Shown: positions 80-16,822 of the stretch, piece by piece
Layout: the number at the start of each line of letters is the position of its first letter
Numbering within the stretch: the stretch's first letter is position 1
Source: SAR92 clade bacterium
GTDB taxonomy: Bacteria > Pseudomonadota > Gammaproteobacteria > Pseudomonadales > Porticoccaceae
Direction of reading: 5' to 3'
DNA: 64,000 bases
Assembly: GCA_004211905.1 (NCBI GenBank)
Contig: SHBP01000008.1
Coordinates: forward strand, 1 to 64,000
The notes under the pieces: model-generated
The model's input: only the letters and a program-made list of their open reading frames with translations
Told to the model about the DNA's origin: nothing
Databases searched by the model: none
Position numbers and translations under genes: made by a program

Positions 80-1237
80 ATGTCTGCCAAAATTGTGCTT
101 CCTCGCGTTTTACAAATTGGTGCTGGTGCTAGCAGCGAAGTAGGTCCCATCTTGAAAAGCTTAGGCTTAAATCACCCTTTGATTGTGACTGATAAAGTTA
201 TGGTCCTTCTTGGTTATATTGAAAGTCTGCAAAAGTCTCTAGTTGAATCAGAAATAAACGCAGATGTCTTTGATGATACGGTGCCAGAACCGACGGTGGC
301 TTCAATACAGGCTGGAGTTAAACAAGTTCGTAACGGAAACTATGATTGCGTTATTGCTCTGGGTGGCGGAAGCCCAATCGACAGCGCCAAGGCGATCGCG
401 ATATTAGGTAAATATGGCGGCGAAATGCGCGATTATAAATTCCCTAGAATCGTCGACGAACCAGGCCTACCAGTTATTGCCATTCCCACGACCGCTGGTA
501 CCGGTTCGGAAGTAACCAGAGTAACAATTATCTCCGATGAGATTACCGATGAAAAAATGATGTGCTTAGGGATTGGTTTCATGCCAACAGTCGCTTTAGT
601 TGACTATGAGTTGTCAATAAGTGTGCCTGCGCGCACCACCGCCGACACGGGCATTGATGCCATGACTCATGCTATCGAAGCCTATGTCAGTAAAAAAGCC
701 AGCGCGTACACGGACACTCAGGCAATTGCTGCGATGAAGCTAATTGGCCCTAATCTTCGAAAGGTATACCACAACGGTGGTGATAGAGACGCGCGCGAAC
801 AGATGATGCTAGGCTCTACGCTAGCTGGAGTAGCCTTTTCTAACGCCTCTGTAGCGTTAGTGCACGGCATGAGCAGACCTATTGGAGCGGCTTATCATGT
901 ACCCCATGGCCTTTCTAACGCAATGTTACTCCCAGCAGTAACAGAATTCTCAATTCCAGCTGCAGCCGAGCGTTACGCAGACTGCGCCCGAGCAATCGGC
1001 GTGGCGGATAATAGTGATGATACTGAAGTTGCCAACAATAAATTAATGGACGAACTTCACGCTCTGAATAAAGAGCTACAAGTGCCTTCCCCTGAGGAGT
1101 TCGGGATTGACCGTCAGCATTTCTTTAATAATCTGCAGACGATGGCAGAGCAAGCTCTAGCGTCAGGATCACCAGCAAATAATCCAAGAGCACCCAATGC
1201 TGAAGAAATTATCGAGTTGTACAAGAAGCTCTGGTAA
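80..1237 (+). CDS. Iron-containing alcohol dehydrogenase (group III)
   Basis: NAD(P)-dependent oxidation of an alcohol or reduction of an aldehyde in the cytoplasm. The 385-aa length is normal for the family. The nucleotide-binding GGGSPIDSAKA motif is near residue 95, and the four metal ligands expected for Fe-ADHs are visible as Asp193, His197, His262 and His276. An SD (GGAG) precedes the ATG. It is followed 54 bp later by a CoA-acylating semialdehyde dehydrogenase and then an IclR regulator, so the three probably form one transcript that turns an alcohol into an acyl-CoA through an aldehyde. The exact substrate (3-hydroxyacid, lactaldehyde or another) cannot be read from the sequence. Confidence 0.9.
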   Translation: MSAKIVLPRVLQIGAGASSEVGPILKSLGLNHPLIVTDKVMVLLGYIESLQKSLVESEINADVFDDTVPEPTVASIQAGVKQVRNGNYDCVIALGGGSPIDSAKAIAILGKYGGEMRDYKFPRIVDEPGLPVIAIPTTAGTGSEVTRVTIISDEITDEKMMCLGIGFMPTVALVDYELSISVPARTTADTGIDAMTHAIEAYVSKKASAYTDTQAIAAMKLIGPNLRKVYHNGGDRDAREQMMLGSTLAGVAFSNASVALVHGMSRPIGAAYHVPHGLSNAMLLPAVTEFSIPAAAERYADCARAIGVADNSDDTEVANNKLMDELHALNKELQVPSPEEFGIDRQHFFNNLQTMAEQALASGSPANNPRAPNAEEIIELYKKLW

Positions 1238-2788: not shown

Positions 2789-2801
2789 TTTAGGTATCTT
2801 G

Positions 2802-3593
2802 ATGACAAATAACGGTAGAGAGAAAGGATCTGCTATTGCCCGGGTAATGGCTATTATTGAAGCTGTATCTAAGGCGGAGAGACCGCTATCTCCTGCCGAT
2901 CTCTCTTACCAGTTAAGTATCCCAAAACCCAGCGTACATCGCTTACTAAACCAGCTGGAAAGTGATGGTTATCTGCAAACGTCGATGCGCGGACTCATCG
3001 TGCCGGGCAATCGGTTGCATGGAATGGCCTTAGGAATATTGTATAGCAGTCGATTTAAAGCGCTAAGACAGGCAATTTTAGAAACATTAACAAGTGAAAT
3101 TGGTGAAACTTGTGGTATCGCCATCCCAAATGGCACCGAAATGATCTATTACGATAGAGTCCAGACTGATTGGCCTCTGCAAATTCATCTACAGGTTGGT
3201 AGCCGTACACCGACCTGGTGCACCGCCAGCGGTAAGCTTTATCTCAGTTCTATCAACAGAGATCGGCGTTTACGTCTAACTAAAAGACTTCCTCTCAAGC
3301 AATATACTCGCAACACCATTGTCGACTCAGATATTCTTGAAGAAGAGTTAGGGATTATAAGGAAAGCGGGGATTGGTACAGATAATGAAGAGTTCGTCGA
3401 CGGAATGGTAGCCTGTGCTGTACCTGTTTTAGATCGACATGGAAAACTTTTTGCTTGTCTCTTTACCCATGCACCGGTCATCCGCAAAAGCCTTGATGAA
3501 TTACTCGGTTATGTACCAATGCTAACTAATGCTGCGATGGAACTAAGCCGTTTAATTGATGATCCTGACGGTGACCTTGAGGGTGCCAAATAG
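2802..3593 (+). CDS. IclR family transcriptional regulator
   Basis: DNA-binding regulator of about 263 aa. An N-terminal winged helix-turn-helix (about residues 12-75, including the PKPSVHRLLNQLESDGYL segment) is followed by the IclR effector-binding domain, with CGIAIPNGTEMIYYDRV in its first strand and a late Cys-containing ACAVPVLD segment. I chose the ATG at 2802 over the TTG at 2799 because AGG lies seven bases upstream. It ends the three-gene + strand unit and probably controls the Fe-ADH/semialdehyde dehydrogenase pair, and perhaps the facing - strand genes. The ligand is unknown. Confidence 0.88.
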   Translation: MTNNGREKGSAIARVMAIIEAVSKAERPLSPADLSYQLSIPKPSVHRLLNQLESDGYLQTSMRGLIVPGNRLHGMALGILYSSRFKALRQAILETLTSEIGETCGIAIPNGTEMIYYDRVQTDWPLQIHLQVGSRTPTWCTASGKLYLSSINRDRRLRLTKRLPLKQYTRNTIVDSDILEEELGIIRKAGIGTDNEEFVDGMVACAVPVLDRHGKLFACLFTHAPVIRKSLDELLGYVPMLTNAAMELSRLIDDPDGDLEGAK

Positions 3594-3614: not shown

Positions 3615-4346
3615 CTAATCTCCTGCACCAGCGCGGGAAAGCTCCGTAGATTCAACGAGTACTCTAGCGACTAGATCATCAAGAGTTTTCCATAGCGCCT
3701 CGTCTATCTCGATACCCTGCTCAAGAGAATCTCTATAGCAGTCCTCCATTTTCGCGGAGTCATAGGTATCAATTAACCTTCCAAACTTAAGATATTGCGC
3801 GTATTGATTTTCGACAATCTTCAAACTAGGACCACAAAAAACCCTCAAAGATTGTATATCAAACTCCTCAATTAAACTAAACGTCTTGTATTCAGGTAGT
3901 AAGCCGCCTGCTTCGACAGATACTTTTACGCAATAATCAAGCTGTCTCCAATAAGCAACGAAAGCAACATTCCTTTCTGCGGCTTTGACCAACCGCTGAA
4001 TAATAAAGGTGCGGTTATAGCAATTGATCAATTCCAGTCCCGCACTCGAATTTGCTGTGCTCGCCGCTCTGAGGAGATCGACTGCCTCACTACCGCACAA
4101 TAAAATCGATGTCCCTCTGCCATCCAAAACGAAATTATGTCCGTCTTCTTGAGTAAGATCTGCATGGACGGGTGCAGTGGTATTTAGATAAGATAGGGCC
4201 GCTATTAACCGATCAAAACCATAAAAACCATGGGCTTCCAACCAAATCACCATATCAGTAGCGTTATGGTAATCTCCAGAATGAAAGCCCAAACCTTCAA
4301 ATGCCTTATGCAAGGAAGCCTTTAGTTCATTCTTCGAGACTTTCAT
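3615..4346 (-). CDS. DUF3726-like protein of unknown function
   Basis: A soluble 243-aa protein. The N-terminal pattern (SKNELKASLHKAFEGLGF, then a WLEAHGFYG segment) and the length resemble DUF3726 proteins; this is recognition by eye. No catalytic motif, signal peptide or membrane segment is visible. It starts five bases after the stop of the upstream 581-aa protein gene, so the two are almost certainly co-transcribed and may form a complex. In the same strand run are an M19-like protein and an aldehyde dehydrogenase, suggesting a role in a catabolic enzyme system. The function is not known to me. Confidence 0.65.
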   Translation of the reverse strand: MKVSKNELKASLHKAFEGLGFHSGDYHNATDMVIWLEAHGFYGFDRLIAALSYLNTTAPVHADLTQEDGHNFVLDGRGTSILLCGSEAVDLLRAASTANSSAGLELINCYNRTFIIQRLVKAAERNVAFVAYWRQLDYCVKVSVEAGGLLPEYKTFSLIEEFDIQSLRVFCGPSLKIVENQYAQYLKFGRLIDTYDSAKMEDCYRDSLEQGIEIDEALWKTLDDLVARVLVESTELSRAGAGD

Positions 4347-4351
4347 ACTAA

Positions 4352-6097
4352 TTAACCAGCCGTAAAGATGGGTTTAATGGGAAAATGCCAGTCATCGCAA
4401 AGAGGTTTACCAAAATCATCAATCAACGGGGCGCCTTGAAACATAGTGTTACGCACCCAAAGGCGTGAACGAGGATCAAATTTACTAACCCCGAAAAACG
4501 ATAGTTTGCAGCGCAAAAGATGGATTGGCAGAACATCAGTATGAAGCAAATTCTCGCGGATATCCCCATAAAGGCTGTTAGCCATAGTTTGGATGCGAGC
4601 CACGATACCGCTACGTGTCGGATTCTTAATAATGAAATGAGCAACATTCTGGTTTGGCTGTTCGAGATTATAGCTACACATTTGATCGTAACAATCACGA
4701 ACTCGGCGGCCAATACCTAAAGGCATCTCTTTTTCCATTCCTAGGTCAATATCGGTCTGTCCCAGACGTGGCTCCATTTTTTCTTCAGAGCGATACCAAA
4801 AAGCTCCTGTGGACTCATGCTTGCTGAAATCTATTGCCAGTGCCCAATCATATTTGTCTTCAATAATACTGATCAGGTCAGAGACACTCATTTCGGGAGT
4901 CACGTCATAGCATTCCTCCACCCACATCCGCTCTTCCAACTCATCGACCAACTCAGGATAAAGTTCAATCAATAGAGTATTGATTATTTCTTGAGTTTCT
5001 ACATGCCAATGCTGCTCTGCATACTCAATGAGAGTCCTCCATACGAGATGGTTGCTCGCAAGCTCTGGGCCCTCCTCTTGCAGCCACAACCGAAGTAAGT
5101 GCAATTCCTTCTGTACTGTTAGATTTGACTTGTGCTGTCGTTCATCGCCAGTGACAATCTCACTTAAATGCTGGATAACCCTCTTTGCACCCATATCAAG
5201 ATGCACAAGAATCTCTTTTTCCACCCCGAATTCACTGGCAGCCACAACCCGAGCCAACGCAGTTTCACGCATTTCAACCCACTGATTGATTAATAGTGGA
5301 TGATTTATTAAAAATGGTGCCATACCAAGACCTGTAGAATTACCAATGCCTATATAGCGTTTAATATTCTCATCTAGTTTTACTGCAGTTTTTGGGGCCC
5401 GCTTTGCTGCCAGGTAGTCAGCTTGTTCCATACTAAAGTGACGAAGTATGTAGCAGGTGAACATTTCCGCAGCAAAGGGTCGAGCAAAATCGCGATGTTT
5501 GGTCCACACTTTCTCCCAATCTGCCATACCCAACTTACCGCTACCGTAGGCCGCAGTCGTCCTATACAGATAACCAACCTCGGCAATCACATCAATATTG
5601 GGCTGACAACCATTGGTCAGCTCATTAACTACATACTCGAAGGTTCGTGCACTGCGATTGGCACGAGATAACACCATGACCCTTGAGTCTACACGCCCCG
5701 CTTCTTGCTTAGGTACATTCTCTCGCAAAAAAGCCAATTGCTCTGCATCTACTGTGCCTTCACAAAGAGCCATGGTTAGATCCCACTGGTCAGCAATGAC
5801 ACGATCGTTTCGACACTCTGGATCAAGGTAATGGGAGAACAAAACATAACTGAAAGTGCCATATTTGGCCACGACTTGATAGACTACAGTTCCGTATCCC
5901 TGCTCATCTAGATCAAATACTGGGGTACTGATCTGCCAGTTCTCCGTGACCATACGTCGCACCAAAGTTCGCATAAAACTTAATCGAGTTTGGTGGAAAC
6001 TACCTAGCCGATCTAATTGCATAACTTGACTGGCAGGGCGCATTGCCAAGATATTAAACTCGCTTAAAATTCCAGTATTTTGAATTGAGCTATGCAT
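4352..6097 (-). CDS. Unrecognised 581-aa conserved-looking protein
   Basis: I do not recognise this family. The predicted protein is large, soluble, rich in Trp, Arg and acidic residues, with no signal peptide or membrane helix. A distinctive segment near residues 430-450 reads FWYRSEEKMEPRLG, and the C-terminus carries several Trp/Arg/Pro-rich stretches (for example RSRLWVRNTMFQGAPL). I place the start at the ATG at 6097; the upstream TTG at 6106 is too close to the AGGGTG ribosome site. It sits between the M19-like gene (about 120 bp upstream) and the DUF3726-like gene (5 bp downstream). The strict pairing with DUF3726 suggests an enzyme subunit or scaffold, but this is inference. Confidence 0.8.
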   Translation of the reverse strand: MHSSIQNTGILSEFNILAMRPASQVMQLDRLGSFHQTRLSFMRTLVRRMVTENWQISTPVFDLDEQGYGTVVYQVVAKYGTFSYVLFSHYLDPECRNDRVIADQWDLTMALCEGTVDAEQLAFLRENVPKQEAGRVDSRVMVLSRANRSARTFEYVVNELTNGCQPNIDVIAEVGYLYRTTAAYGSGKLGMADWEKVWTKHRDFARPFAAEMFTCYILRHFSMEQADYLAAKRAPKTAVKLDENIKRYIGIGNSTGLGMAPFLINHPLLINQWVEMRETALARVVAASEFGVEKEILVHLDMGAKRVIQHLSEIVTGDERQHKSNLTVQKELHLLRLWLQEEGPELASNHLVWRTLIEYAEQHWHVETQEIINTLLIELYPELVDELEERMWVEECYDVTPEMSVSDLISIIEDKYDWALAIDFSKHESTGAFWYRSEEKMEPRLGQTDIDLGMEKEMPLGIGRRVRDCYDQMCSYNLEQPNQNVAHFIIKNPTRSGIVARIQTMANSLYGDIRENLLHTDVLPIHLLRCKLSFFGVSKFDPRSRLWVRNTMFQGAPLIDDFGKPLCDDWHFPIKPIFTAG

Positions 6098-6216
6098 GTT
6101 ATTCAAGCACCCTAATCTCTAACATAATTCATGAGAAACTAATGTTATCACTGCTCTTACGTTGCCAGGCTTGACCAAGATCAAACAGATCTTTGATAAT
6201 CTGGTCCCTTAATTTT

Positions 6217-7215
6217 TCAAGATTTTATCAAGCTACCAGAAAAGGATTTTTCAAAAAACGACAACCAGTTTCTACCCATCACTTTGGCCACATCAACTTC
6301 TTTGAAGCCATGATCTTCAAGACCCTTTGCAACCTTATGGAAGTCTTCAGCGCCTTTAAACCAAACGGGTTGTTCAGGCCAAGATAGTTTATCTGCAGAA
6401 CCTTCACCGTGATCAACACTCGTCGTCCATCGACCACTTCGCATCCATTCTAAAGTTTTGTAATCCCAATTTAAACAGAGATCAGACCCAATACCAATGC
6501 GATCAATGCCTATCATTTCAGCGGTCTGGGCAATCATCATACAAAAATCTTCCAACGTACAATCAGAGCCATTCTTTAAATGAAAGGGATACATACTAAA
6601 CCCAAGCATACCCTCTGATTCGCCAATCGCCCTTAGCACAGTGTCCGACTTGTTACGCAATGCATTATGGAAAAAACTAGGATTGGCATGAGTAATAGCA
6701 ATAGGCCTTTCCGATATATCTATTGCTTCTAAGGTCGATTTTTCCGCACTGTGGGACATGTCGATCACCATACCAACACGGTTCATCTCTTTAATCACTT
6801 GTCGTCCAAATCGCGTAATACCACCATCTTGCTCTTCGTAACAACCAGTAGCCAAGAAACTCTGATTGTTATAGGAAAGCTGCATAATCCGCACACCAAG
6901 CTGATGCAGAATTTCTACCATTTTGACGTCATCTTCAATAGGTGAGCAGTTTTGGAATCCAAAGATAATACCCACTTTACCCAACCGCTGTGCTTCTAAA
7001 ATATCCGCAGCCTGGTGCACCGGCATAATAAGATCACTATTGTTGATAAAGTGCCTGTTCCAAGTGCCTATATTTTCGAGAGTTTCTCTGATATTTTCCC
7101 AGTAAGCAATGGTCACATGAATGGTGTGAACGCCGCTTTTTTGGGCTTCTTTAAATAATTGACGATTCCAGTTAACGTACTGAAGGCCATCTATCATTAG
7201 CATATCTTTACGCAT
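6217..7215 (-). CDS. Peptidase M19 (renal dipeptidase) family protein with degenerate metal site
   Basis: 332 aa with an M19 amidohydrolase-type barrel. Known dipeptidases use an N-terminal His-x-Asp (DGHND), a bridging Glu, two later His and an Asp. Here the first motif is DGLQYVNW (residues 9-16), the bridging Glu region reads GFQNCSP (Gln88), and only DMSHS (His155), THANP (His176) and GIGSDL (Asp245) look conserved; the second late His appears to be replaced in MMIAQTAEMIG. So the two-zinc site is probably absent and ordinary dipeptidase activity is doubtful. A GAGAG ribosome site precedes the ATG. It follows the aldehyde dehydrogenase by about 32 bp, in one operon with the unknown 581-aa protein. 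Confidence 0.85.
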   Translation of the reverse strand: MRKDMLMIDGLQYVNWNRQLFKEAQKSGVHTIHVTIAYWENIRETLENIGTWNRHFINNSDLIMPVHQAADILEAQRLGKVGIIFGFQNCSPIEDDVKMVEILHQLGVRIMQLSYNNQSFLATGCYEEQDGGITRFGRQVIKEMNRVGMVIDMSHSAEKSTLEAIDISERPIAITHANPSFFHNALRNKSDTVLRAIGESEGMLGFSMYPFHLKNGSDCTLEDFCMMIAQTAEMIGIDRIGIGSDLCLNWDYKTLEWMRSGRWTTSVDHGEGSADKLSWPEQPVWFKGAEDFHKVAKGLEDHGFKEVDVAKVMGRNWLSFFEKSFSGSLIKS

Positions 7216-7247
7216 TTAAAACTCTCTCAAGTCCAAATCTTTTGACT

Positions 7248-8693
7248 TTAGTAAGGTTTGCTATAGTTGGTTTTTATAATCGTGTAAAAATCCCTAGCAT
7301 ACTGACCCTGCTCCCGTGGTCCATAACTTGAGGCTTTTCTGCCACCAAAAGGAACATGGTAGTCAGTGCCGGCAGTAGGTAAATTAACCATAACGCACCC
7401 CGATTTTGAGTGACGTTTAAAATGCCCTGCATGCTTCAAAGACGTGGTGATAATGCCTGAGGTTAAACCAAAATCAGAATCATTAGACACTTCTAATGCC
7501 TGCTCATAACTGTCTACCTTAATAACACAGGCAATCGGCCCAAATATTTCTTCTCGATTAATTTGCATCTGATTGTCAGTATTAACAAACAGAGCCGGTG
7601 ACATAAAGTAACCCTCAGTATCTAGTGACAGTTTTTCACCGCCCTGAACTAGCTCAGCGCCTTCCGCCTTAGCAATCTCCATGTATTTGAGGTTTTGATT
7701 AAGCTGGCGCTCATCGACCACAGCACCAATATGAACTCCAGGCGTCAAAGAATTTCCAACAACCAAATTATTCATCGCCTCAGTCATTTTGGTGACAAAT
7801 TCATCATGAATACCTGACTCCACAATAATACGAGAAGAAGCCGTGCACTTTTGTCCAGTACCAAAGTATGCGCCGGCCACTGCACATTGCACGGCAGTAT
7901 CTATGTCAGCATCGTTCAGCACTACCAAGGCGTTCTTACTACCCATTTCTAACTGAATTCTAGCCATGTTATCAATCGCATTACGGGCGATATGACGACC
8001 AACATCAACTGATCCAGTAAATGTTACTGCTTGAATATCTGGTGATGTGCACAGCGTTTCGCCCACTTCTCGGCCAGACCCCATCACTAAATTAAAAACG
8101 CCCGCAGGAAGACCGCTGCGGCTAATAATGTCCGCTAATAACCATGCACTTCCAGGAACTAATTCAGCTGGCTTAAGAACAACACAGTTGCCATAGGCAA
8201 TTGCCGGTGCGACTTTCCATGCAGCTACAGCCATGGGGAAATTCCAAGGCGTAACTATACCGACGACACCAAGAGGCTCCCGATGAACCTCCACATCAAC
8301 ACCAGGTCGAACTGAGGCTGTATTTTCACCCATTAAACGAAGTACTTCAGCGCCATAGTATTGGAAGAACTGCCCAGAACGAGCAACCTCACCAACACCC
8401 TCTGCCAGAGTCTTACCTTCTTCTCGCGCGAGAACTTCACCAATCTCGGCACTTCGTGCAATTAACTCAGCACCAATCATGTCCAATGATGCCTTGCGCT
8501 GTTCAAGACCGCTCTGAGACCAACTTTCGAAGGCCATATTCGCCGCTTTAATAGCAGCTAAGCAATCATCTGAATTAGCTTTAGCGTAACGGCCCACAAT
8601 ATCGCTGGTATCAGAGGGGTTCACATTAACTATCTCGTCATAACCTTCTACCCATTCGCCGTTAATATAATTTCGATATACTTGACTGGTCAT
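7248..8693 (-). CDS. NAD(P)-dependent aldehyde dehydrogenase (alpha-ketoglutarate-semialdehyde DH-like)
   Basis: Oxidises an aldehyde to an acid in the cytoplasm. The 481-aa protein has TPWNFPMA, the general-base Glu in LEMGSKN (about 249) and catalytic Cys283 in GQKCTASS, so it is hydrolytic, unlike the MmsA-type enzyme at 1292. The N-terminus (NYINGEWVEG, then NPSDTSDIVGRYA) resembles 2-oxoglutarate-semialdehyde dehydrogenases; the substrate remains a guess. I place the start at the ATG at 8693, which has a strong AGAGGAAAAGAA upstream, rather than the in-frame ATG twelve codons earlier. It heads the - strand unit with the M19-like, 581-aa and DUF3726-like genes and diverges from a LysR gene. 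Confidence 0.92.
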   Translation of the reverse strand: MTSQVYRNYINGEWVEGYDEIVNVNPSDTSDIVGRYAKANSDDCLAAIKAANMAFESWSQSGLEQRKASLDMIGAELIARSAEIGEVLAREEGKTLAEGVGEVARSGQFFQYYGAEVLRLMGENTASVRPGVDVEVHREPLGVVGIVTPWNFPMAVAAWKVAPAIAYGNCVVLKPAELVPGSAWLLADIISRSGLPAGVFNLVMGSGREVGETLCTSPDIQAVTFTGSVDVGRHIARNAIDNMARIQLEMGSKNALVVLNDADIDTAVQCAVAGAYFGTGQKCTASSRIIVESGIHDEFVTKMTEAMNNLVVGNSLTPGVHIGAVVDERQLNQNLKYMEIAKAEGAELVQGGEKLSLDTEGYFMSPALFVNTDNQMQINREEIFGPIACVIKVDSYEQALEVSNDSDFGLTSGIITTSLKHAGHFKRHSKSGCVMVNLPTAGTDYHVPFGGRKASSYGPREQGQYARDFYTIIKTNYSKPY

Positions 8694-8869
8694 TTCTTTT
8701 CCTCTGGAATAATTACCGATTTTCGCCACTTTCGTTGATAAACAATAGTTTAACCCTTTCTAATAATAAATCTATTTACAAATTTATATAGATATATAAG
8801 AATTATTAATCTATAACTGTAATACCGTACTAACTCACCTAAAGATCCTACAAAATAAAGAGGGTACAT
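8694..8869. promoter_or_regulatory. Divergent promoter region with a possible LysR operator
   Basis: The 176-bp gap between the divergent aldehyde dehydrogenase and LysR genes is very A+T-rich. It holds an inverted repeat TTATATA-GA-TATATAA (8784-8799) and an outer TAGAT/ATCTA pair (8789-8793 and 8809-8813). LysR proteins commonly bind interrupted dyads in such divergent regions, so this is a plausible operator. In DNA this A+T-rich, dyads also occur by chance. Confidence 0.4.
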
Positions 8870-9805
8870 ATGAAGTATCTCAATATTACACTGCGGCATT
8901 TACGCACATTTGTCATCGTCGCTAGATACGGCAGTTTCAATAGGGCTGCAGAGGAACTCTCCCGAACTCAGCCGGCCATTACCCTAGCCATTAAACAACT
9001 GGAGGAGTTTGTGGGGCTCAAACTATTAGATAGAACGACTCGCCGCGTCATACCAACTGCCGAGGGTGAAAACTTTATGCCGATTGCTGAACGGCTAGTC
9101 CGTGACTTTGATACTGCTATCTCTGACCTCAAGGCAACAGCGGAGAAAAGAATTGGTAATGTCAGTATCGCCATAGTGCCCTCGGTTGCCAATCAACTCC
9201 TGCCACCTATCATAAAAACCTTCTCGAGAAATTTTCCAGGGATTAATTTATTGCTAAATGATGATACTGCTAGAGGTGTCCAGCAAAAAGTAGAACGTAA
9301 TGAGGTAGACTTTGGTATCGGGAGTGTTTGGCAATCAAGTAAACTCTTGAAGTTTACCCCCTTATTTTCGGACAATTTAGAACTAGTCTTTCATAAAGAC
9401 CATGATCTTGCACAGAACCAAGAACCTATTAATTGGAGTGCACTGAGTAACGAAACATTCCTAGATTCCGGCATTACTAAAAATATGCGTTCCAGACTAC
9501 TTCTTGGTCCATCGAAATTTGACTTTCCGAGTATTACGACACTCTTAGCAATGCTGAGATCTAACTTGGGCGTCAGCGTGCTGCCATCTTTAGCTATACC
9601 CCGGTCCAATGGAGAATTAAGATCAAGGCCACTTCTTCCATTAGAGAAGCGAGACATCTGTATGATTACGCGTCACGATTGGACGCTATCCCCCGCTGCC
9701 GAGGCTATGATTGACACTATCATAAAAGAGATACCCGCTCAGATTGAACACCTCAATCTTTCCCCACCTAACGGACTCAATCCAAAATCAAGTTATCAGC
9801 TTTAA
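8870..9805 (+). CDS. LysR family transcriptional regulator
   Basis: 311 aa. The N-terminal LysR winged helix-turn-helix (about residues 5-64, including FNRAAEELSRTQPAITLAIKQLEE) is followed by the periplasmic-binding-protein-like effector domain. A GAGGG ribosome site precedes the ATG. The gene diverges from the aldehyde dehydrogenase operon and converges with the Ldh2-type gene; the two stop codons interleave in one TTAA. Its location between the two catabolic - strand units makes it the likely activator of both. The inducer is unknown. Confidence 0.92.
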   Translation: MKYLNITLRHLRTFVIVARYGSFNRAAEELSRTQPAITLAIKQLEEFVGLKLLDRTTRRVIPTAEGENFMPIAERLVRDFDTAISDLKATAEKRIGNVSIAIVPSVANQLLPPIIKTFSRNFPGINLLLNDDTARGVQQKVERNEVDFGIGSVWQSSKLLKFTPLFSDNLELVFHKDHDLAQNQEPINWSALSNETFLDSGITKNMRSRLLLGPSKFDFPSITTLLAMLRSNLGVSVLPSLAIPRSNGELRSRPLLPLEKRDICMITRHDWTLSPAAEAMIDTIIKEIPAQIEHLNLSPPNGLNPKSSYQL

Positions 9806-10821
9806 TCAGTTGCTTTAGTGAGCTCAATGCAGTTCTCGTAAACTGACTGCTTAACTGCGATTCCTTTGTCACTGTTCCTTGCGCGATTGGCATAACGCCG
9901 ATTACCTGGCATATGAGCACCTTCCATTCCCCCTAATAATTGCAAGAATGATTCTGAGTGCTGTAACCAATTCTCCGAATCACCAAAGCGATTGGGATCT
10001 ATAGCGAGCATAAATTCACCACCATTAGGTGGCCCACCGTCGTTGTTATCATTTTTCTGAGCTTCAAAACTAAAGTCCTGACCGGTGAGGCCGGCTACTA
10101 GTAGCTCGATCATCATGGCAATCGTTGAGCCTTTATGACCACCGAACGGGAGCAATGCTCCTCCATTAATGATTTTATCTGCGTCAGTTGTAGGCGCACC
10201 ATCAGAATCAACACCTGTGCCCGCTGGAACTGGGTGACCATCACGAGCCGCGATCATAACCTCTCCTCTCGCCATGGCAGCCGAGGCCTGATCAAAGACC
10301 AAGGGTGGCTGATCCCCCCGAGGCCAACCAAAGCACATAGGGTTAGTGCCAAATAATGGCTGTTTTGCACCCGCAGGAACAACAGCAGGCTTATAGGTAG
10401 TAAAAGCCATTGCAGCCAATCCTGCTTCTGCAATTGGCTCGACCTCAACCCACAGAGCAGCAAAATGGTGCACGTTGACCAGAGCCATAGCAGCTATTCC
10501 ATTTTCACTGGCAGCCTCAATAAGAGCAGCTCTACCCATCTCAAGAGCTAAAGGTGCATAACCATGATCACCATCTACCCTTACTACTCCAGGAGAAATT
10601 CGAGATACTGTTGGATTAGCATTTCCATTAACTTTACCGCTGCGAAGGGAAGCCACGTAGCCTGGCATACGGAAAAGACCGTGGGCAGCACAGCCATCTA
10701 ATTCTGCCGCCGCTATCGTACGGGCAACAGCCGATGCATTCTGCGAATTACAACCATTAGTTTCAAGACCTTGCTCTACTAAGGTTTGAATTTCTTGTTT
10801 AGTCATTATTACATCAGACAC
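9802..10821 (-). CDS. Ldh2/malate-lactate dehydrogenase family NAD(P)-dependent oxidoreductase
   Basis: 339 aa, PF02615-type fold, which includes malate/sulfolactate/ureidoglycolate dehydrogenases and Delta1-piperideine/pyrroline-2-carboxylate reductases. Visible family landmarks are the AAELDGCAAHGLFRMPGY N-terminal segment, the VHHFAALW catalytic-His loop, FGTNPMCFGWPR, and LPFGGHKGSTIAMMIELL near the C-terminus. Translation most likely starts at a GTG (10821), because AGAGGAG lies seven bases upstream and the in-frame ATG five codons later has no ribosome site. It would oxidise a 2-hydroxyacid or reduce a cyclic imino acid; with the nearby aldehyde dehydrogenase it fits a pathway ending in a 2-oxoacid. 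Confidence 0.88.
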   Translation of the reverse strand: MSDVIMTKQEIQTLVEQGLETNGCNSQNASAVARTIAAAELDGCAAHGLFRMPGYVASLRSGKVNGNANPTVSRISPGVVRVDGDHGYAPLALEMGRAALIEAASENGIAAMALVNVHHFAALWVEVEPIAEAGLAAMAFTTYKPAVVPAGAKQPLFGTNPMCFGWPRGDQPPLVFDQASAAMARGEVMIAARDGHPVPAGTGVDSDGAPTTDADKIINGGALLPFGGHKGSTIAMMIELLVAGLTGQDFSFEAQKNDNNDGGPPNGGEFMLAIDPNRFGDSENWLQHSESFLQLLGGMEGAHMPGNRRYANRARNSDKGIAVKQSVYENCIELTKATD

Positions 10822-10863
10822 TTTATCTCTCCTCTGATTAGGCTACTCGCCCGTTATTATTCT

Positions 10864-12873
10864 TTAAATAGGGTATCGTTCAAGCATTGGACCCAGCGCT
10901 TGCTTAAGCGGATCCAAATTTGACTCAAAATTTTTCCACTGCTCTATACCACTCTGGTAGATTGGCTGGCGAACTTGCTCTGAACTGGGCGTGCGAACAG
11001 ATCGGTCTGTCTCATGGAAATTGATACAGCTTTCTTCAAACTCTAGCCCACAATAGTCAAGAATTCTCCTGACCTGAGTGTCCAAATCGGCGACAACCTC
11101 TTCATACTGAACCCGTAACACCTGCCCCGGGAGCACTTTGTCCCAGTGATCCATTAGCTCAACATAGTCTCTATAATAGGTACCCACCTCCTCAAGACCA
11201 TAGGTGAACTCCTGACCCTCTGCAAACAACTGCTTGAAACCACTAAAGCAACTCCCCATGGGATGCCGGCGAGCATCTATAATCTTTGCGTTAGGTAGCA
11301 TTAGTTTGATCAATCCCACATGTCTGAAGTTATTTGGCATCTTATCGATAAAGAATGGAGCCGAACCTCGATGCACTCGAGTTTCATCAATGAACTTTTC
11401 ACCAAACTCCAAAAATTGCTCTGCGGGTAACTCTTTTAATATTCCAGGGTAATGATTAACAGCACTCATTCGTTCTCCTCGGCGCAGCTTTTGCGCCAAA
11501 GCGAGCATATTGGGCAACTCCATCGTCCCGTCCACCTGGCTGTGAGAAGCAAGAATTTGCTCTAGCAGCGTGGAGCCAGATCTAGGTAATCCCACGATAA
11601 ATATTGGATCAGGAGAGGTAAAGCCAGTATTCGCGTGACTGGCAATAAATGCATCATCGAACACCTCGGTTTGGGCTTTAAATTCAGCCGTTAAATCACT
11701 TGCTTTGTACCGACTCTGAGATTTTTTAAACGCATTACCTCGCTCGTAAAACATAAATGCTTTATCAAATAAGCCTTTGTCTTCATAGGCTTTGCCTAAA
11801 GCAAAATTGAGATAAATTCGGCTCTGGTGAGAAATCCCAAGATTAGACTCTTGGGCTTCCATAGCCTGAATCTCTTCGTCGCTAAAACTAAACAATTTTA
11901 AATTAGCAAGGGAGTAGTATGCCTCACCATGAGCAGCATACTTTTTGATCGCGCGACGGTAAGAATCGATAGCATCCTCCGTTTGACCCTGAGTTTTTAA
12001 AGCATGGCCTCGAGAAGTCAAAGTCACCGGATCTTCAGGTAATATTTTTAAAATAGACTCAAACATCGAGAGCGCGGTATCGTAATCACCAGACTGCATA
12101 GATTCAACCGCAAAAACTGATTGAAACTGTGGGTTAGAAGGATCCGTATCAAGCAACAGCTTAGCTTGACGCAAAGATTCTTGATAATTCTGACGTTTTC
12201 TCAATACCTGTATGTAATCAATCCGAGCCTTCGTATGATCTGGAGCAAATTCAACTGCACTCTCTAACAAAAACTCAGCATCCTCTAGAACGCCAAGACG
12301 ACTCCCAATATCAGCTAGTAATCGCATCCCCTCAATATTTCGAGGTACTTTCTGCATAAATGCTTTACACAACTGCTCAGCTTTAATTAACTTACCCTGC
12401 GCAATAAGATCTGTGACAGCCACCAAGGGCTTGGGCAAAGCCTCTAGGGATTCTAATTGCTGTTTTAATTGACCGGTCAAATGGGAGCGGTCAGTCGCAG
12501 TGAGAATATCGATCTGAGCACGAAAACTAGCTGCCAGAGCAGGATTTATTTGAGTAGCACGACTGAAAGCATTAAGAGCAGCTCCAGCATTATTCATTGC
12601 GCGATAAACGTGCCCTGTCTCTTGAAATGCACGGCTATGCTCTGGAACCAAAGACTTAAGTTTTTCGAGGGTGGCCAACGCTGAAGAATGCTTACTTAAA
12701 TAACGCTGGCATACAGCCAACATGTATAGCACATCATCATTTTTCTCTACTTCGTCATGCATTTTAAGTAACTGCTTCTCTGCCTTGCCAAAATCTCCGG
12801 CTTGCATAAGCTTCTTAACACTATCTAACGCTGCTTCAGTTGCAGATGCTTCTTGCATTACATGTTCCACCAT
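10864..12873 (-). CDS. TPR-repeat sulfotransferase
   Basis: 669 aa. About residues 1-380 are tandem tetratricopeptide-like helices (repeated LAxxxxxxGxxxxA spacing). The C-terminal domain starts near residue 425 with PIFIVGLPRSGSTLLEQIL, the 5'-phosphosulfate-binding loop of PAPS-dependent sulfotransferases, followed by DKMPNNFRHVGLI and DARRHPMGSCFSGFKQLF, the 3'-phosphate-binding region. Predicted to sulfate, or act on the sulfate of, a small molecule or carbohydrate. It lies directly downstream of a TBDR, but a terminator separates the two transcripts. TPR-sulfotransferases are frequent in marine Gammaproteobacteria and rarely characterised; the acceptor is unknown. Confidence 0.9.
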   Translation of the reverse strand: MVEHVMQEASATEAALDSVKKLMQAGDFGKAEKQLLKMHDEVEKNDDVLYMLAVCQRYLSKHSSALATLEKLKSLVPEHSRAFQETGHVYRAMNNAGAALNAFSRATQINPALAASFRAQIDILTATDRSHLTGQLKQQLESLEALPKPLVAVTDLIAQGKLIKAEQLCKAFMQKVPRNIEGMRLLADIGSRLGVLEDAEFLLESAVEFAPDHTKARIDYIQVLRKRQNYQESLRQAKLLLDTDPSNPQFQSVFAVESMQSGDYDTALSMFESILKILPEDPVTLTSRGHALKTQGQTEDAIDSYRRAIKKYAAHGEAYYSLANLKLFSFSDEEIQAMEAQESNLGISHQSRIYLNFALGKAYEDKGLFDKAFMFYERGNAFKKSQSRYKASDLTAEFKAQTEVFDDAFIASHANTGFTSPDPIFIVGLPRSGSTLLEQILASHSQVDGTMELPNMLALAQKLRRGERMSAVNHYPGILKELPAEQFLEFGEKFIDETRVHRGSAPFFIDKMPNNFRHVGLIKLMLPNAKIIDARRHPMGSCFSGFKQLFAEGQEFTYGLEEVGTYYRDYVELMDHWDKVLPGQVLRVQYEEVVADLDTQVRRILDYCGLEFEESCINFHETDRSVRTPSSEQVRQPIYQSGIEQWKNFESNLDPLKQALGPMLERYPI

Positions 12874-12885
12874 TTAATTAGACCT

Positions 12886-12917
12886 ATAAAAATAATGCCC
12901 CTCGAGAGGGGCATTAT
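12886..12917 (-). terminator. Intrinsic terminator of the TBDR gene
   Basis: A perfect 12-bp inverted repeat (12892-12903 with 12906-12917, ATAATGCCCCTC arms) is followed on the - strand by a TTTTT run (complement of 12888-12892). It lies just past the TBDR stop at 12948 and ahead of the TPR-sulfotransferase start, so it should end the TBDR transcript. Confidence 0.85.
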
Positions 12918-12947
12918 GATCTAGCTTTTTAAACTACTTTTCAATGA

Positions 12948-15506
12948 TTAGAAATTGTAGGTCATGCGAACACCCATGGTACGAGGGGCTGCGTATGAAA
13001 CACGCTCTCTATCGTTGATGTAGTTTCGTGACATTTCAGCACGCTCGTCAGTCAGGTTGTTAATGAAAAGCTCTGCACCCCAAGTGTCAGTCGTGACACC
13101 AGCGGTAAGGCCTAACATAGTCCAACCAGCAATACGGTCGCGATTTATACGGATAATATCACTGTAGGACTCAGCTGAATGCGCTAAGTGAGGCATGATG
13201 TGAGCCGTCATTCCTGACGCTGTCTGCCACTCATAACGAGCCTGAAGGTTACCTTGGAACTCAGGGGCAAATGCCAATGAATCACCAGCAACAACATCAC
13301 CAGAAGGAGTAAGCGTCTTAGTGATCTCTGTATCAAGCATAGAGATACTCGCACTAACAGTTAGGCCCTCGACACTCGCTGGAGCCCAAATCATGTCAGC
13401 TTCTACACCTCTAACCTCAGCATCGGCTGCGTTATCAGAGAAGAACAAGTTAGCGATGCTTGGGTCAAAGATAGTGGTTTGTAAACCACCGATCTGTGCA
13501 ACAAACGCGCTACCATTGAAACGCATACGGCCATCCATAAGATCAGCCTTCCAACCCATCTCATAGTTAGTCATATCATCTGAATCAAACGCATAGGGAA
13601 CAGTGTAGCTACCATCAGCGGTTGTTCTACCTCCAGGACGGTTCAAGAAGCCCGATCGGAAACCTTCAGAGATTGTCACATACAACAACACATCCTCATT
13701 AGGAGTATAAGAAGTAGTGAACTTCATTACCGTTCCATCATCAGTGGCCTTATCTATACCTGATGTAGGATTGTCACCGCCGTAAAGTGTCGCAATGTTA
13801 GTACCAAATACTTGAGCATCAACACAAGAAGGGTTAGCACTACCACAGAAGTTGTAGAAAGAACCTGCGGCACTACCATCAAAGTCAATCTCAACATCGT
13901 AGTAACGTGCACCAACAGTCACAGACAGATCATCACTGACGTCATAGCTCAATTCACCAAACACACCCCATTGCTCATCAGTCCGCTGAACATCGTTACG
14001 GAAGATCTCACCGGGAGCATATTTTTCATTCGTCGACAGATACCCATCGCCGTATGAATAGTTAGGATCCGCGAATCCAGGGCCAGAACCCTCTCCACCC
14101 CAACCCTGAGCCTTTATGCTGCCTGGGTAGGTAAAGCTTACGCGCTCTTGCAGTGTAGTATCACTGAAGAAAGCACCACCAGTAAGACGAGTTCTCTTAT
14201 CTTGGTCAGTAGTAAAGCGAACCTCATGAGTACTTACTTCTGTCTCTGTATGGCTTGGCGCCAACATATCAGGCTCATAACATGTACCCGTTCCGTCACC
14301 GTAAGTTACAGAGTAATCACAGATGTAGTACGGCAAGTACTGACCGACAAACATATAATCAGAATATCCAATCACCTGATCCGCAGTACGCTCGGTATAA
14401 GCACCAGTATAGACAACGTCTAAGCCAGCAACTCTGCCTGTTAGCGTCCAACTTGTGTTGTCGAACTCATCTTTAATCGTATCATCAGAATAACTTTGGA
14501 TTTCAAGGTCACCTAAGTTAGGATCAGCATAGAACACACCATCCGAATCTAATTCCTGAGTGGTATGGGCTAACAATAGATCCCAATCATCGCTCAGGCT
14601 AATCAATGCACTGAGTCGCCCACCAGTGTATTTAGTATCATTGAAATCGTCTTCTACAAGGTCAGTGTTGTCTGCTGCGATAAAGGTAACACCAGGCATA
14701 TCAGTATAGCCGTCACCGTCCGCATCAACGCCAGTTCCTTGGAAACCAGTACGTCGAGCACTCACAGGCACGCCGTTGGACCGCATAAACCCTTCTTGGC
14801 GGAAGCGTGCACTCTCTTCGACAGTGCGAGTACCATGCACGTTATCAATGTAACCACCCTTGTCATCACTATAAACAACGCCACGCAAAGTAATGTTGTC
14901 ACTAATAGGTAGGTTGTACATTGCTTCGAAGTTACTGTTATTTCCGCCCTCGTTTATGGTAGAGAAGCCAACCTTCAATTTACCATAAGCACCACTTGGA
15001 TCAGGCTTATTGGTGATTAAGCGGACTGTACCCGCCTGAGAACTCGCTCCGAACAGTGTACCCTGGGGTCCTGCTAACACTTCCACTCGATTCAAGTCGG
15101 CAGCATAAACATCAAGGTTACGGCCAGGTTGTGCCAAAGGCTGCTCATCGAGGTAAAAAGCTACGTTCGGGGCAAGACCAGCAACACCAGCAATCGAAAT
15201 TGCAGGCGTAGTCGATGCTATACCACGTATATAAATTGTATTCTGTCCTGGGCCGCTACCGCCCGCAGAAACACCTGGCAACTGAACAAGATAATCTTGG
15301 AAATTGGAAACGCCCATTTGGTCAAGCTTCTCTGACGTCAACGCAGACACTGCAACTGGAATGTCTTGCGTACTTGCAGACGTCTTTGTCGCTGTTACGA
15401 TAACCTCTTCAATCCCCTGAGATGCTGCCAAACTGGCACCTGTTGCGGCAAAACCTGCGGCAATAATAGACGCCACCGCTCGGTTTACTTTTGTCTTATG
15501 AAACAT
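12948..15506 (-). CDS. TonB-dependent outer-membrane receptor
   Basis: 852 aa. The N-terminus is a signal peptide (KTKVNRAVASIIAAGF... ending near Ala-Ala-Ser), then a TonB-box-like IEEVIVTATK, a plug domain (VSNFQDYLVQLPGVS, NRVEVLAGPQGTLFGASSQAG) and a 22-strand barrel ending in an aromatic residue (MGVRMTYNF). The start is the ATG at 15506 with GGGGAG six bases upstream, rather than the longer frame, which would mask the signal peptide. It imports an unknown substrate across the outer membrane using the proton motive force. Proximity to the Ldh2/ALDH block suggests it takes up that pathway's substrate; this is inference. Confidence 0.92.
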   Translation of the reverse strand: MFHKTKVNRAVASIIAAGFAATGASLAASQGIEEVIVTATKTSASTQDIPVAVSALTSEKLDQMGVSNFQDYLVQLPGVSAGGSGPGQNTIYIRGIASTTPAISIAGVAGLAPNVAFYLDEQPLAQPGRNLDVYAADLNRVEVLAGPQGTLFGASSQAGTVRLITNKPDPSGAYGKLKVGFSTINEGGNNSNFEAMYNLPISDNITLRGVVYSDDKGGYIDNVHGTRTVEESARFRQEGFMRSNGVPVSARRTGFQGTGVDADGDGYTDMPGVTFIAADNTDLVEDDFNDTKYTGGRLSALISLSDDWDLLLAHTTQELDSDGVFYADPNLGDLEIQSYSDDTIKDEFDNTSWTLTGRVAGLDVVYTGAYTERTADQVIGYSDYMFVGQYLPYYICDYSVTYGDGTGTCYEPDMLAPSHTETEVSTHEVRFTTDQDKRTRLTGGAFFSDTTLQERVSFTYPGSIKAQGWGGEGSGPGFADPNYSYGDGYLSTNEKYAPGEIFRNDVQRTDEQWGVFGELSYDVSDDLSVTVGARYYDVEIDFDGSAAGSFYNFCGSANPSCVDAQVFGTNIATLYGGDNPTSGIDKATDDGTVMKFTTSYTPNEDVLLYVTISEGFRSGFLNRPGGRTTADGSYTVPYAFDSDDMTNYEMGWKADLMDGRMRFNGSAFVAQIGGLQTTIFDPSIANLFFSDNAADAEVRGVEADMIWAPASVEGLTVSASISMLDTEITKTLTPSGDVVAGDSLAFAPEFQGNLQARYEWQTASGMTAHIMPHLAHSAESYSDIIRINRDRIAGWTMLGLTAGVTTDTWGAELFINNLTDERAEMSRNYINDRERVSYAAPRTMGVRMTYNF

Positions 15507-15821
15507 ATGTTTCTCCCCTAAATAAATTTTAAAATGCATGCAAGCTTGTATGTTTTTACTTTTAGCCGTCAAACCATAGCACATAATTAGCGAAATTTTT
15601 AGCTAATCCGTGTTGATCGTCTACCACTGGAGGGCCTTGAACAAATTAAAAAAGCAAATACATTGATCATTTTTATTTATAAACTAACAAAAATCAATAG
15701 AAAACTCAGCATTTACGGTACCTTCAGCCTTTATATTTATAGTGACAACTCAAGTACCACAACACGATAAACCTAAAATAAGTCATCGTAATGCCTTTAT
15801 CGAACCAATTTGAAGCTCGAT
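15507..15821. other. Intergenic region upstream of the TBDR
   Basis: 315 bp without a gene. It must hold the promoter of the TBDR (- strand). It is A+T-rich and contains an inverted repeat ATTAGC-N10-GCTAAT (15586-15591 with 15602-15607), a possible operator. I see no RNA gene or small ORF with a credible ribosome site. Confidence 0.5.
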
Positions 15822-16655
15822 TTACTCTACTATTTGGATTTGTTGAGATGAGATCGTAATTTTTTTACTTTTATAAAGATTCCCTAGCGCCTGCTTATAC
15901 TTTTTCTTAGAAACCTTAAATACACGGTAAATTTCCTCGGGGTTACTCTTATCAGTAAGAGTAGAAGTCCCGCCTTGATTAATTAAGTACTGAACAATTT
16001 GCTGAGATAGATCATGGCCCCCTTGGAGTGTTGCTTGTGAAATAAGTAGATCAATTTTTCCATCTGATCGAATTGATTTAACAAAACCCGGTAAGCGTTC
16101 GCCAATCTTCAACGGTCGATACGCATCAGCTCTAAAAAGAAGACCTAAATATTTGTCATCTATGATTGCCTTGTAGCCCAACTCCGTGCGGCTCGCGATT
16201 TGCAAATTGACCGACTGCCGAGGCTTCAGCCAAACCGACTGCTCATCCAAATGATGGCTCAACTTAGTCGAAGCTGCGATTCGATCTGAAGCCTCATCAT
16301 GGTATACATAGACCACATAAGAATAGCCAACTTCCATGGGTTTTTGTTGCTCGTTATAGGGAACCAACAAATCCTTAGGTAATCCCCAATCCATGAAAGC
16401 GCCCGCTTGATTAATATCCACTACCTTGAGCATCTCACAACAACCCACCTCTACCTTAGGCTTTTCTGTTGTAGCGATTAGCAAGTCATCAGAATCAAAG
16501 TATAGAAATACGTCAATCCAATCACCAATTTCACACCCGGTTGGCACATAGCGTTTTGGCAATAAAATCGTATCTAAGTCATCACCATCTAAATAGACGC
16601 CAAAATCGACCTGCTTGACGACCTGCAGATTATTGAACGTTCCGATTGTTACCAT
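15822..16655 (-). CDS. CvfB-type S1-domain RNA-binding protein
   Basis: 277 aa from the ATG at 16655, whose product (MVTIGTFNNLQVVKQVDFGVYLDGD) starts like known CvfB/YitL proteins; an upstream ATG at 16688 would add eleven atypical residues. The family has three S1-like beta-barrels and a C-terminal winged helix. Here barrel segments are seen as GVYLDGDDLDTILLPKRYVP, GAFMDWGLPKDLLVPYNEQ and GLLFRADAYRPLKIGERLPG, and the C-terminus (EEIYRVFKVSKKKYKQALGNLYKSKKI) matches the winged helix. It is thought to bind RNA in the cytoplasm. The gene stands alone, diverging from an MFS transporter. Confidence 0.85.
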   Translation of the reverse strand: MVTIGTFNNLQVVKQVDFGVYLDGDDLDTILLPKRYVPTGCEIGDWIDVFLYFDSDDLLIATTEKPKVEVGCCEMLKVVDINQAGAFMDWGLPKDLLVPYNEQQKPMEVGYSYVVYVYHDEASDRIAASTKLSHHLDEQSVWLKPRQSVNLQIASRTELGYKAIIDDKYLGLLFRADAYRPLKIGERLPGFVKSIRSDGKIDLLISQATLQGGHDLSQQIVQYLINQGGTSTLTDKSNPEEIYRVFKVSKKKYKQALGNLYKSKKITISSQQIQIVE

Positions 16656-16822
16656 AGAGTTAGGCCAGATAAAAAGTGACAGTACCATACCGGATAGACA
16701 ACGATTGTACAGGACTTCTTAATTAGGAATAACTAAAAGCTACTAGATAAACTGATGAATTCGTTTATGCTTGCGCTTTTCCAAGTTGATATCTGATCTC
16801 CGTATTCAACTTAACACGAGAT

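Follow-up and report, generated by a model that had tools for sequence, protein, structure and literature searches.

The stretch of DNA analyzed here, referred to below as the window, comprises 64,000 nucleotides of a SAR92 clade bacterium (positions 1 to 64,000 of contig SHBP01000008.1, assembly GCA_004211905.1) and begins at the left end of a contig that we call C37; the genome amounts to 2.28 Mb on 38 contigs and is 91% complete. Between positions 3615 and 15506 lies a block of genes for a TonB-dependent receptor, several enzymes and two proteins that the original prediction had called orphans, and for which it had proposed uptake and stepwise breakdown of one substrate. Our list of open reading frames (ORFs) and the domain scans recovered every gene that the prediction had named, at the positions it had given. 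We lean, at slightly better than even chances, towards reading the block as an island for the breakdown of a betaine-type compound that carries an N-methyl group, with homarine (N-methylpicolinate) as the likeliest candidate. The genes of the block and its left flank are as follows.

80-1237, plus strand: iron-type alcohol dehydrogenase (Fe-ADH), DddB-like; PF00465
1292-2788, plus strand: CoA-acylating malonate/methylmalonate-semialdehyde dehydrogenase (MMSDH), DddC-like; TIGR01722, 673 bits against a cut-off of 448.5
2799-3593, plus strand: IclR regulator of the ddd-type module; PF01614, PF09339
3615-4346, minus strand: DUF3726 protein, 243 amino acids (aa); Pfam PF12525, 2.6e-10
4352-6106, minus strand: 584-aa ORF of the cassette core; 581 aa counted from the second Met
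6217-7215, minus strand: M19-like protein (membrane-dipeptidase fold); PF01244, 3e-76; closest PDB entry 2i5g
7248-8729, minus strand: aldehyde dehydrogenase (ALDH); PF00171, 3.9e-157
8870-9805, plus strand: LysR regulator, divergent from the ALDH gene
9802-10821, minus strand: Ldh2-family reductase, DpkA (delta1-piperideine-2-carboxylate reductase) type, 339 aa; PF02615, 7.7e-100
10864-12873, minus strand: TPR-sulfotransferase; PF13469, 3.5e-54, plus TPRs
12948-15506, minus strand: TonB-dependent receptor (TBDR); PF00593, 7e-24; PF07715, 1.2e-17

The longest ORF of the receptor gene begins at 15584; we read its start as the Met at 15506, which opens a signal-peptide-like sequence. A gene for a CvfB-like S1/winged-helix protein adjoins it at 15822-16688.

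To define the cassette we examined 80 named loci carrying the 584-aa gene. In 55 of them the sequence extends at least 6.5 kb on the upstream side of the match and 4 kb on the downstream side, and these form our full-flank set. Neighbors were counted up to 10 kb from the 584-aa gene, with one query sequence each and with identity and bit cut-offs that we set. The M19-like gene was present in 53 of the 55 full-flank loci, the ALDH and LysR genes in 46 each, and a BCCT carrier gene in 41. All other neighbors were rarer: Ldh2 (9), SoxA (4), sulfotransferase (4), TBDR (3), MMSDH (2), ProX (2), DddD, Fe-ADH and a Rieske-type gene (1 each) and RidA (0). Because of these frequencies, we assign LysR, ALDH, the M19-like protein, the 584-aa protein and DUF3726 to the core, often joined by BCCT, and treat Ldh2, the demethylase discussed below and TBDR as additions, Ldh2 being an optional module of the cassette (9/55).

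The two former orphans are constant partners in this core. A hidden Markov model (HMM), built from an alignment that already contained 52 of the 80 loci, found a DUF3726-like ORF next after the 584-aa gene, with the strand unchanged, in 77 of them; in one of the three misses (L056) the gene is present by tblastn, and in Mesorhizobium 131-2-1 the 584-aa protein and DUF3726 are annotated as a single coding sequence of 2445 nt. The linkage of both families that the original prediction expected across genomes thus held. The core is found again in Gamma- and Alphaproteobacteria (among the Rhodobacterales in Ruegeria TM1040 and Phaeobacter) and on plasmids, its genes varying somewhat in order and orientation, so that the grouping exceeds chance. 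A scan of species genomes confirmed at least 576 loci of the 584-aa family, the closest named ones among those listed coming from metagenome-assembled genomes of Porticoccaceae, and tblastn found it in 168 plasmid records; the Aliiroseovarius version matched 49 of 385 sampled alphaproteobacterial genomes (E≤1e-60), and the gene occurs in 40 of 112 genomes of the window organism's family. Members were also found in Brevibacillus, in a metagenome-assembled genome of the Anaerolineae and in the archaeon Natrinema. Neither protein is an orphan, both belonging to a widespread cassette; the proposal of uptake and stepwise catabolism of one substrate looks right.

More distant versions occur in other settings. 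On pSymB of S. meliloti (L039, 10010-13456), a distant core consists of IclR, 584-aa family, DUF3726-like and M19-like genes; its neighbors encode an ABC transporter, an aminotransferase, a succinate-semialdehyde dehydrogenase and RidA, with an ALDH-family gene about 7 kb further on, and it probably serves another substrate. In Bosea and M. ciceri (L042, L045), the 584-aa family gene and a small partner lie amid ABC-transporter genes with no annotated M19 gene, and aldo/keto reductase and ALDH genes are close by.

We then considered what kind of protein the core pair forms. Searches with the 584-aa protein returned nothing from Pfam or NCBIfam at E≤1e-3 and nothing from the PDB sequences at E≤10. 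Its AF2 model is confident, with a predicted local distance difference test score (pLDDT) of 90.9 and a predicted template-modeling score (pTM) of 0.91, and it matched no PDB structure and no viral structure (BFVD) at E≤1e-3, the best PDB match having an E value of 0.31 and a template-modeling score (TM) of 0.09. Set against PDB and BFVD structures, the model makes the protein a candidate new fold. Its invariant columns hold no His or Cys, either among 16 diverse members or among 59 closer ones. This speaks against a metal centre of the classical kind, provided that the distant members work by the same chemistry.

DUF3726, on which we found no papers in the literature library searched, also gave a confident AF2 model (pLDDT 93.4), and all 27 PDB chains that Foldseek matched to it at E≤1e-3 are Ldh2-family structures. 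These alignments are gapped, with a TM by query of only 0.49-0.67 and a root-mean-square deviation of 7.2-13.6, as a shortened or rearranged Ldh2 relative would give. A comparison of DUF3726 with the cassette Ldh2 by hhalign scored 93.8% (E 1.8e-7 for a single pair) and covers Ldh2 residues 3-136 only. The modeled protein thus resembles a truncated Ldh2 fold. Because it is shorter than Ldh2 (243 against 339 aa), it is more likely a partner than a full-length catalytic dehydrogenase. A tentative proposal, which we regard as possible and short of probable, is that both proteins form a new class of two-subunit enzyme, combining a fold unseen in solved structures with a truncated Ldh2-like partner, and opening N-methylpyridinium rings by means other than a recognizable flavin, Rieske or metal oxygenase centre. 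The core pair is a concrete target, being a widespread family with no assigned domain or fold match together with a DUF3726 for which a fold can now be suggested.

The remaining enzymes of the block have closer relatives. The nearest solved structure to the M19-like protein is the P. aeruginosa amidohydrolase 2i5g (5.1e-68), which we take to be PA5396 and whose genomic setting presumably differs from that of the cassette. If the metal ligands of M19 enzymes (HxD and a bridging Glu) are those we assume, the label of pseudo-M19 given by the original prediction is apt: in all eight aligned members the N-terminal HxD motif is missing and Gln88 occupies the position expected of the Glu ligand. H155, H176 and D245 are invariant in the same alignment. 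The ALDH is closest to 2,5-dioxovalerate and alpha-ketoglutarate-semialdehyde dehydrogenases, in line with the likeness proposed before, its best NCBIfam models being NF052305 (491 bits, curated cut-off 750) and NF042993 (490 bits, cut-off 770), both scored below their cut-offs. The best PDB match of the window Ldh2 is DpkA (1wtj; E 2.3e-88), a cyclic-imine reductase, which fits the mention of cyclic imino acids in the original prediction. Within the window organism's family, this type of Ldh2 occurs in 34 of the 40 cassette genomes and in none of the 72 others. Other cassettes are accompanied by a second Ldh2 group that shares only 32-37% identity with it; in a tree with 75 members, each group required two changes when set only against the other. 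Ten proteins in the vicinity of four cassettes that have no Ldh2 (from Vibrio, Marinobacter and two Pseudomonas) were scanned against Pfam and revealed no common extra step.

These similarities could be taken to indicate a proline, hydroxyproline or pipecolate route, in which Ldh2 would act as the cyclic-imine reductase and ALDH as the 2-oxoglutarate-semialdehyde dehydrogenase, and the closeness of Ldh2 to 1wtj and of ALDH to NF052305 and NF042993 fits such a route. We nevertheless rate it as very unlikely. None of the ten block proteins scanned matched a model for a proline racemase or a DHDPS-type deaminase, 46 of the 55 full-flank loci have no Ldh2 within 10 kb, and the linked genes encode N-demethylases and BCCT or ProXWV-type carriers. 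The proline- or hydroxyproline-like substrate that the original prediction had entertained is therefore not supported: a racemase or epimerase and a DapA-like deaminase are missing among the scanned proteins, and N-demethylation genes are linked to the cassette repeatedly.

The link to N-demethylation is seen in the window genome itself. Its contig C6 starts with a LysR gene. A set resembling sarcosine oxidase follows, in which the alpha and beta subunit genes are accompanied by two small ORFs positioned as delta and gamma would be, and after it comes a formyl-transferase-domain gene that we read as PurU. The C6 alpha and beta subunits are 71% and 86% identical to those of the complex beside the HTCC2148 cassette, and 34% and 45% identical to those of the genome's other complex, on contig C1, which scores above the SoxA and SoxB cut-offs. 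Among the 112 family genomes, 36 have both the 584-aa gene and a C6-type beta subunit (E≤1e-150), 4 and 1 have a single one of them, and 71 have neither; within the genus alone the numbers are 33, 3, 1 and 13 (Fisher p 2e-8, with no correction for descent). The cassette and the C6-type beta gene sit together on one contig in 21 of the 36 genomes, forming 22 pairs at distances of 9.8-17.4 kb, and in the other 15, including the window genome, they lie on separate contigs. From the relatives in which both are on one contig, rather than from the assembly, C6 and C37 are probably neighbors in the real chromosome. One relative, G057, carries two copies of both the 584-aa gene and the Sox-like beta gene, each pair about 14.8 kb apart (its contigs C14 and C2). 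Sarcosine-oxidase-like genes lie near the cassette in several lineages (L037, L044, L046, L052, L073, L088, L091, L093, L113, L168, L215 and L220). Use of monomethylamine is less likely for the C6 complex, the window genome (91% complete) having no GmaS above the cut-off; in a GmaS-bearing genome by way of which we looked for a reference Mgd, no close SoxB-like neighbor of the GmaS gene was listed. The C1 region (L137, C1:88000-106000) has a canonical-type sarcosine oxidase near genes for trimethylamine-methyltransferase-like, corrinoid and methyl-THF proteins, named from their translations, and looks like a glycine betaine route.

Entry of the substrate leads to the receptor and its neighbor. 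Each of the four Sulfotransfer_3 domains in the window genome has one of the 22 TBDR plug domains no more than 3.5 kb away; a place chosen at random would be that near a plug in about 7.5% of cases, so that four of four would arise by chance with a probability of about 3e-5. The pairs sit on contigs C37 (window positions 10864-15506), C2, C9 and C3, and look like a general receptor module. Because all four domains lie so close to TBDR plugs, the TPR-sulfotransferase is probably the partner of the TonB receptor in an uptake pair. The sulfated substrate raised by the original prediction is not supported. That the enzyme points to sulfation, either of the substrate or at some step of the pathway, is extremely improbable: its Sulfotransfer_3 domain (3.5e-54) speaks for it, but all four such domains of the genome lie near TBDR plugs, and a sulfotransferase is near only 4 of the 55 full-flank cassettes. 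TBDR and sulfotransferase genes also precede the cassette in L050, L064 (Woeseiaceae), L070 (Hellea) and L071 (another gammaproteobacterium), and a sulfotransferase gene does so in L053. Because the pair comes before the cassette in L064, L070 and L071 as well, entry of the substrate through the window TBDR is plausible.

We next compared 20 related regions, picked from the 40 cassette genomes of the window organism's family (two of our loci, L050 and L162, seem to be one contig, both having 56,620 bases). Where the sequence reaches, the gene order is TBDR, sulfotransferase, Ldh2, LysR, ALDH, M19-like, (BCCT), 584-aa, DUF3726, IclR, MMSDH and Fe-ADH, with BCCT present between the M19-like and 584-aa genes in 5 of the 20. 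TBDR was matched in 14 regions and the sulfotransferase in 16; in L144, L147, L150, L152 and L161 the contig ends before the missing genes, and L160 has the sulfotransferase and no TBDR match in the stretch examined. Fe-ADH accompanies MMSDH and IclR in all 20 regions. DddD stands beside this unit in 15 of them, and in the other five (L147, L149, L150, L152 and L157) a SoxA-type gene takes its place on that side. L157 is the closest relative; there, a DksA/TraR zinc finger is encoded between Fe-ADH and the LysR gene on the Sox side. In the window genome (91% complete) DddD was not found, the search giving weak partial matches only, and the DddB-, DddC- and IclR-like genes are kept there all the same.

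The Fe-ADH/MMSDH/IclR unit is a ddd-type module of its own, corresponding to the 3-hydroxypropionate arm of dimethylsulfoniopropionate (DMSP) clusters, and with DddD beside it in 15 of 20 regions it stands apart from the set that the original prediction saw it flank. A wider separation can be imagined, in which the core cassette, the TBDR/sulfotransferase pair and the ddd arm are independent modules merely side by side in SAR92-type genomes. DddD and Fe-ADH near 1 and TBDR near 3 of the 55 full-flank cassettes speak for it, as do the three other places in the genome at which sulfotransferase and TBDR domains are close together. The receptor pair upstream of the cassette in L064, L070 and L071, and the sulfotransferase in L053, speak against it, and we consider such a patchwork unlikely.

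The reading that we favor, catabolism of homarine by this island, draws these observations together. Homarine is an osmolyte of marine algae; it has six skeletal carbons plus the N-methyl group, and N-methylglutamate has five. The published hom operon, homABCDER, reportedly comprises five genes and a regulator, yields N-methylglutamate, and is said to occur in Rhodobacterales and SAR11. The core cassette is probably this operon in a SAR92-type version; the view that the block resembles no recognized operon would then fall, the cassette being widespread in any case. An N-methylglutamate end suits the block because its Ldh2 is closest to an imine reductase and its ALDH to 2-oxoglutarate-semialdehyde enzymes. 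PMC13390433 states that Mgd has a part in the catabolism of homarine, citing Ferrer-Gonzalez et al. (2026, Nat Microbiol 11:1531), and according to PMC12817926, Ruegeria pomeroyi drew ten diatom metabolites including homarine down to ≤2% in 10 h. The core pair was further found in four alphaproteobacterial genomes of 1.2-1.4 Mb, which carry the 584-aa, DUF3726 and M19-like genes in 17-kb regions of 28-36% GC, together with DmdA-like (3/4), ProXWV-type (2/4) and SoxA (1/4) genes. These four genomes would fit the reported occurrence of homABCDER in SAR11.

Conservation of the gene set, the coupling of its two core proteins, the Ldh2-like model obtained for DUF3726 and the proximity of genes for demethylases and carriers are observations. 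The substrate, the individual reactions and the equation with homABCDER are inferred, and we picture the route as follows. The TonB receptor with its sulfotransferase partner would admit the substrate across the outer membrane, and an inner-membrane carrier would import it; this may be BCCT in some relatives, the window having no BCCT match. ProXWV-type carrier genes lie near the core in L037, L043, L047, L060, L111, L217 and L218. The 584-aa protein and the Ldh2-like DUF3726, acting as one two-subunit enzyme, would attack and open the pyridinium ring, and ALDH would oxidize the five-carbon semialdehyde formed in this way, giving the acid. The carbon left over, perhaps as an N-formyl group, may be freed by the M19-like hydrolase in an amide or formamide step. 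The DpkA-type Ldh2 would reduce the N-methyl imine to N-methylglutamate, from which the sarcosine-oxidase-like demethylase (on C6, and beside the island in relatives) would yield glutamate and a one-carbon unit. LysR would sense the substrate, and cassettes that have no Ldh2 probably dispose of the intermediate otherwise.

Several points weigh against this reading. None of our results names the substrate. ALDH and Ldh2 both score below the cut-offs of their listed NCBIfam models, and the C6 subunits below those of SoxA and SoxB. The co-occurrence of cassette and demethylase inside one family partly mirrors shared descent. The cassette-linked demethylases fall into two subfamilies whose alpha subunits are about 34-36% alike, and their preference for N-methylglutamate over sarcosine is putative. 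A SoxA-type gene lies within 10 kb in only 4 and Ldh2 in 9 of the 55 full-flank loci, so an N-methylglutamate end is not universal. Among the four small genomes, ALDH and Ldh2 were each found in only two of the regions.

The same cassette might instead act on another betaine-type compound (trigonelline, proline betaine or hydroxyproline betaine, N-methylproline) with the same demethylation end, which we consider rather unlikely. Some plasmid loci adjoin genes for a Rieske-type oxygenase, RidA, a mandelate-racemase-like protein and BCCT; we take the mandelate-racemase-like neighbor to be HpbD-like and presume that such a mixture is that of betaine islands. Near the full-flank cassettes, however, Rieske genes were found once in 55 and RidA genes not at all. 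S. meliloti wild type, which has a distant 584-aa homologue, grows on trigonelline according to PMC4207669, but the same paper reports that a strain that has lost pSymA cannot. Because the homologue lies on pSymB, it is insufficient for trigonelline use, and trigonelline is disfavored as the substrate.

If homarine is indeed the substrate, SAR92-type ocean bacteria carry genes for a nitrogen-bearing algal osmolyte beside genes for a DMSP product, and one island ties two osmolyte fluxes together. The genes of DddD-type DMSP clusters are dddD, dddT, dddB and dddC. The window shares its Fe-ADH, MMSDH and IclR genes with its relatives and with Pseudomonas MPC6. It has the Fe-ADH and CoA-acylating dehydrogenase pair of such clusters and differs from them in that DddD was not found. 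The demethylase by the cassettes and on C6 resembles heterotetrameric sarcosine oxidase and N-methylglutamate dehydrogenase in its alpha and beta subunits and in the two small ORFs placed as delta and gamma, with the C6 subunits under the SoxA and SoxB cut-offs. For homABCDER, the link to Mgd stated in PMC13390433 may have its counterpart in the Sox-like complex, which co-occurs with the cassette in 36 of the 40 cassette genomes of the family. Compared with that operon, the SAR92-type island would add the TBDR/sulfotransferase pair, the DpkA-type Ldh2 and the ddd arm. As far as could be checked, four points add to what is published: the resemblance of DUF3726 to the Ldh2 fold, the seeming absence of any known fold in its partner, the optional modules and the joint ddd and demethylase island.

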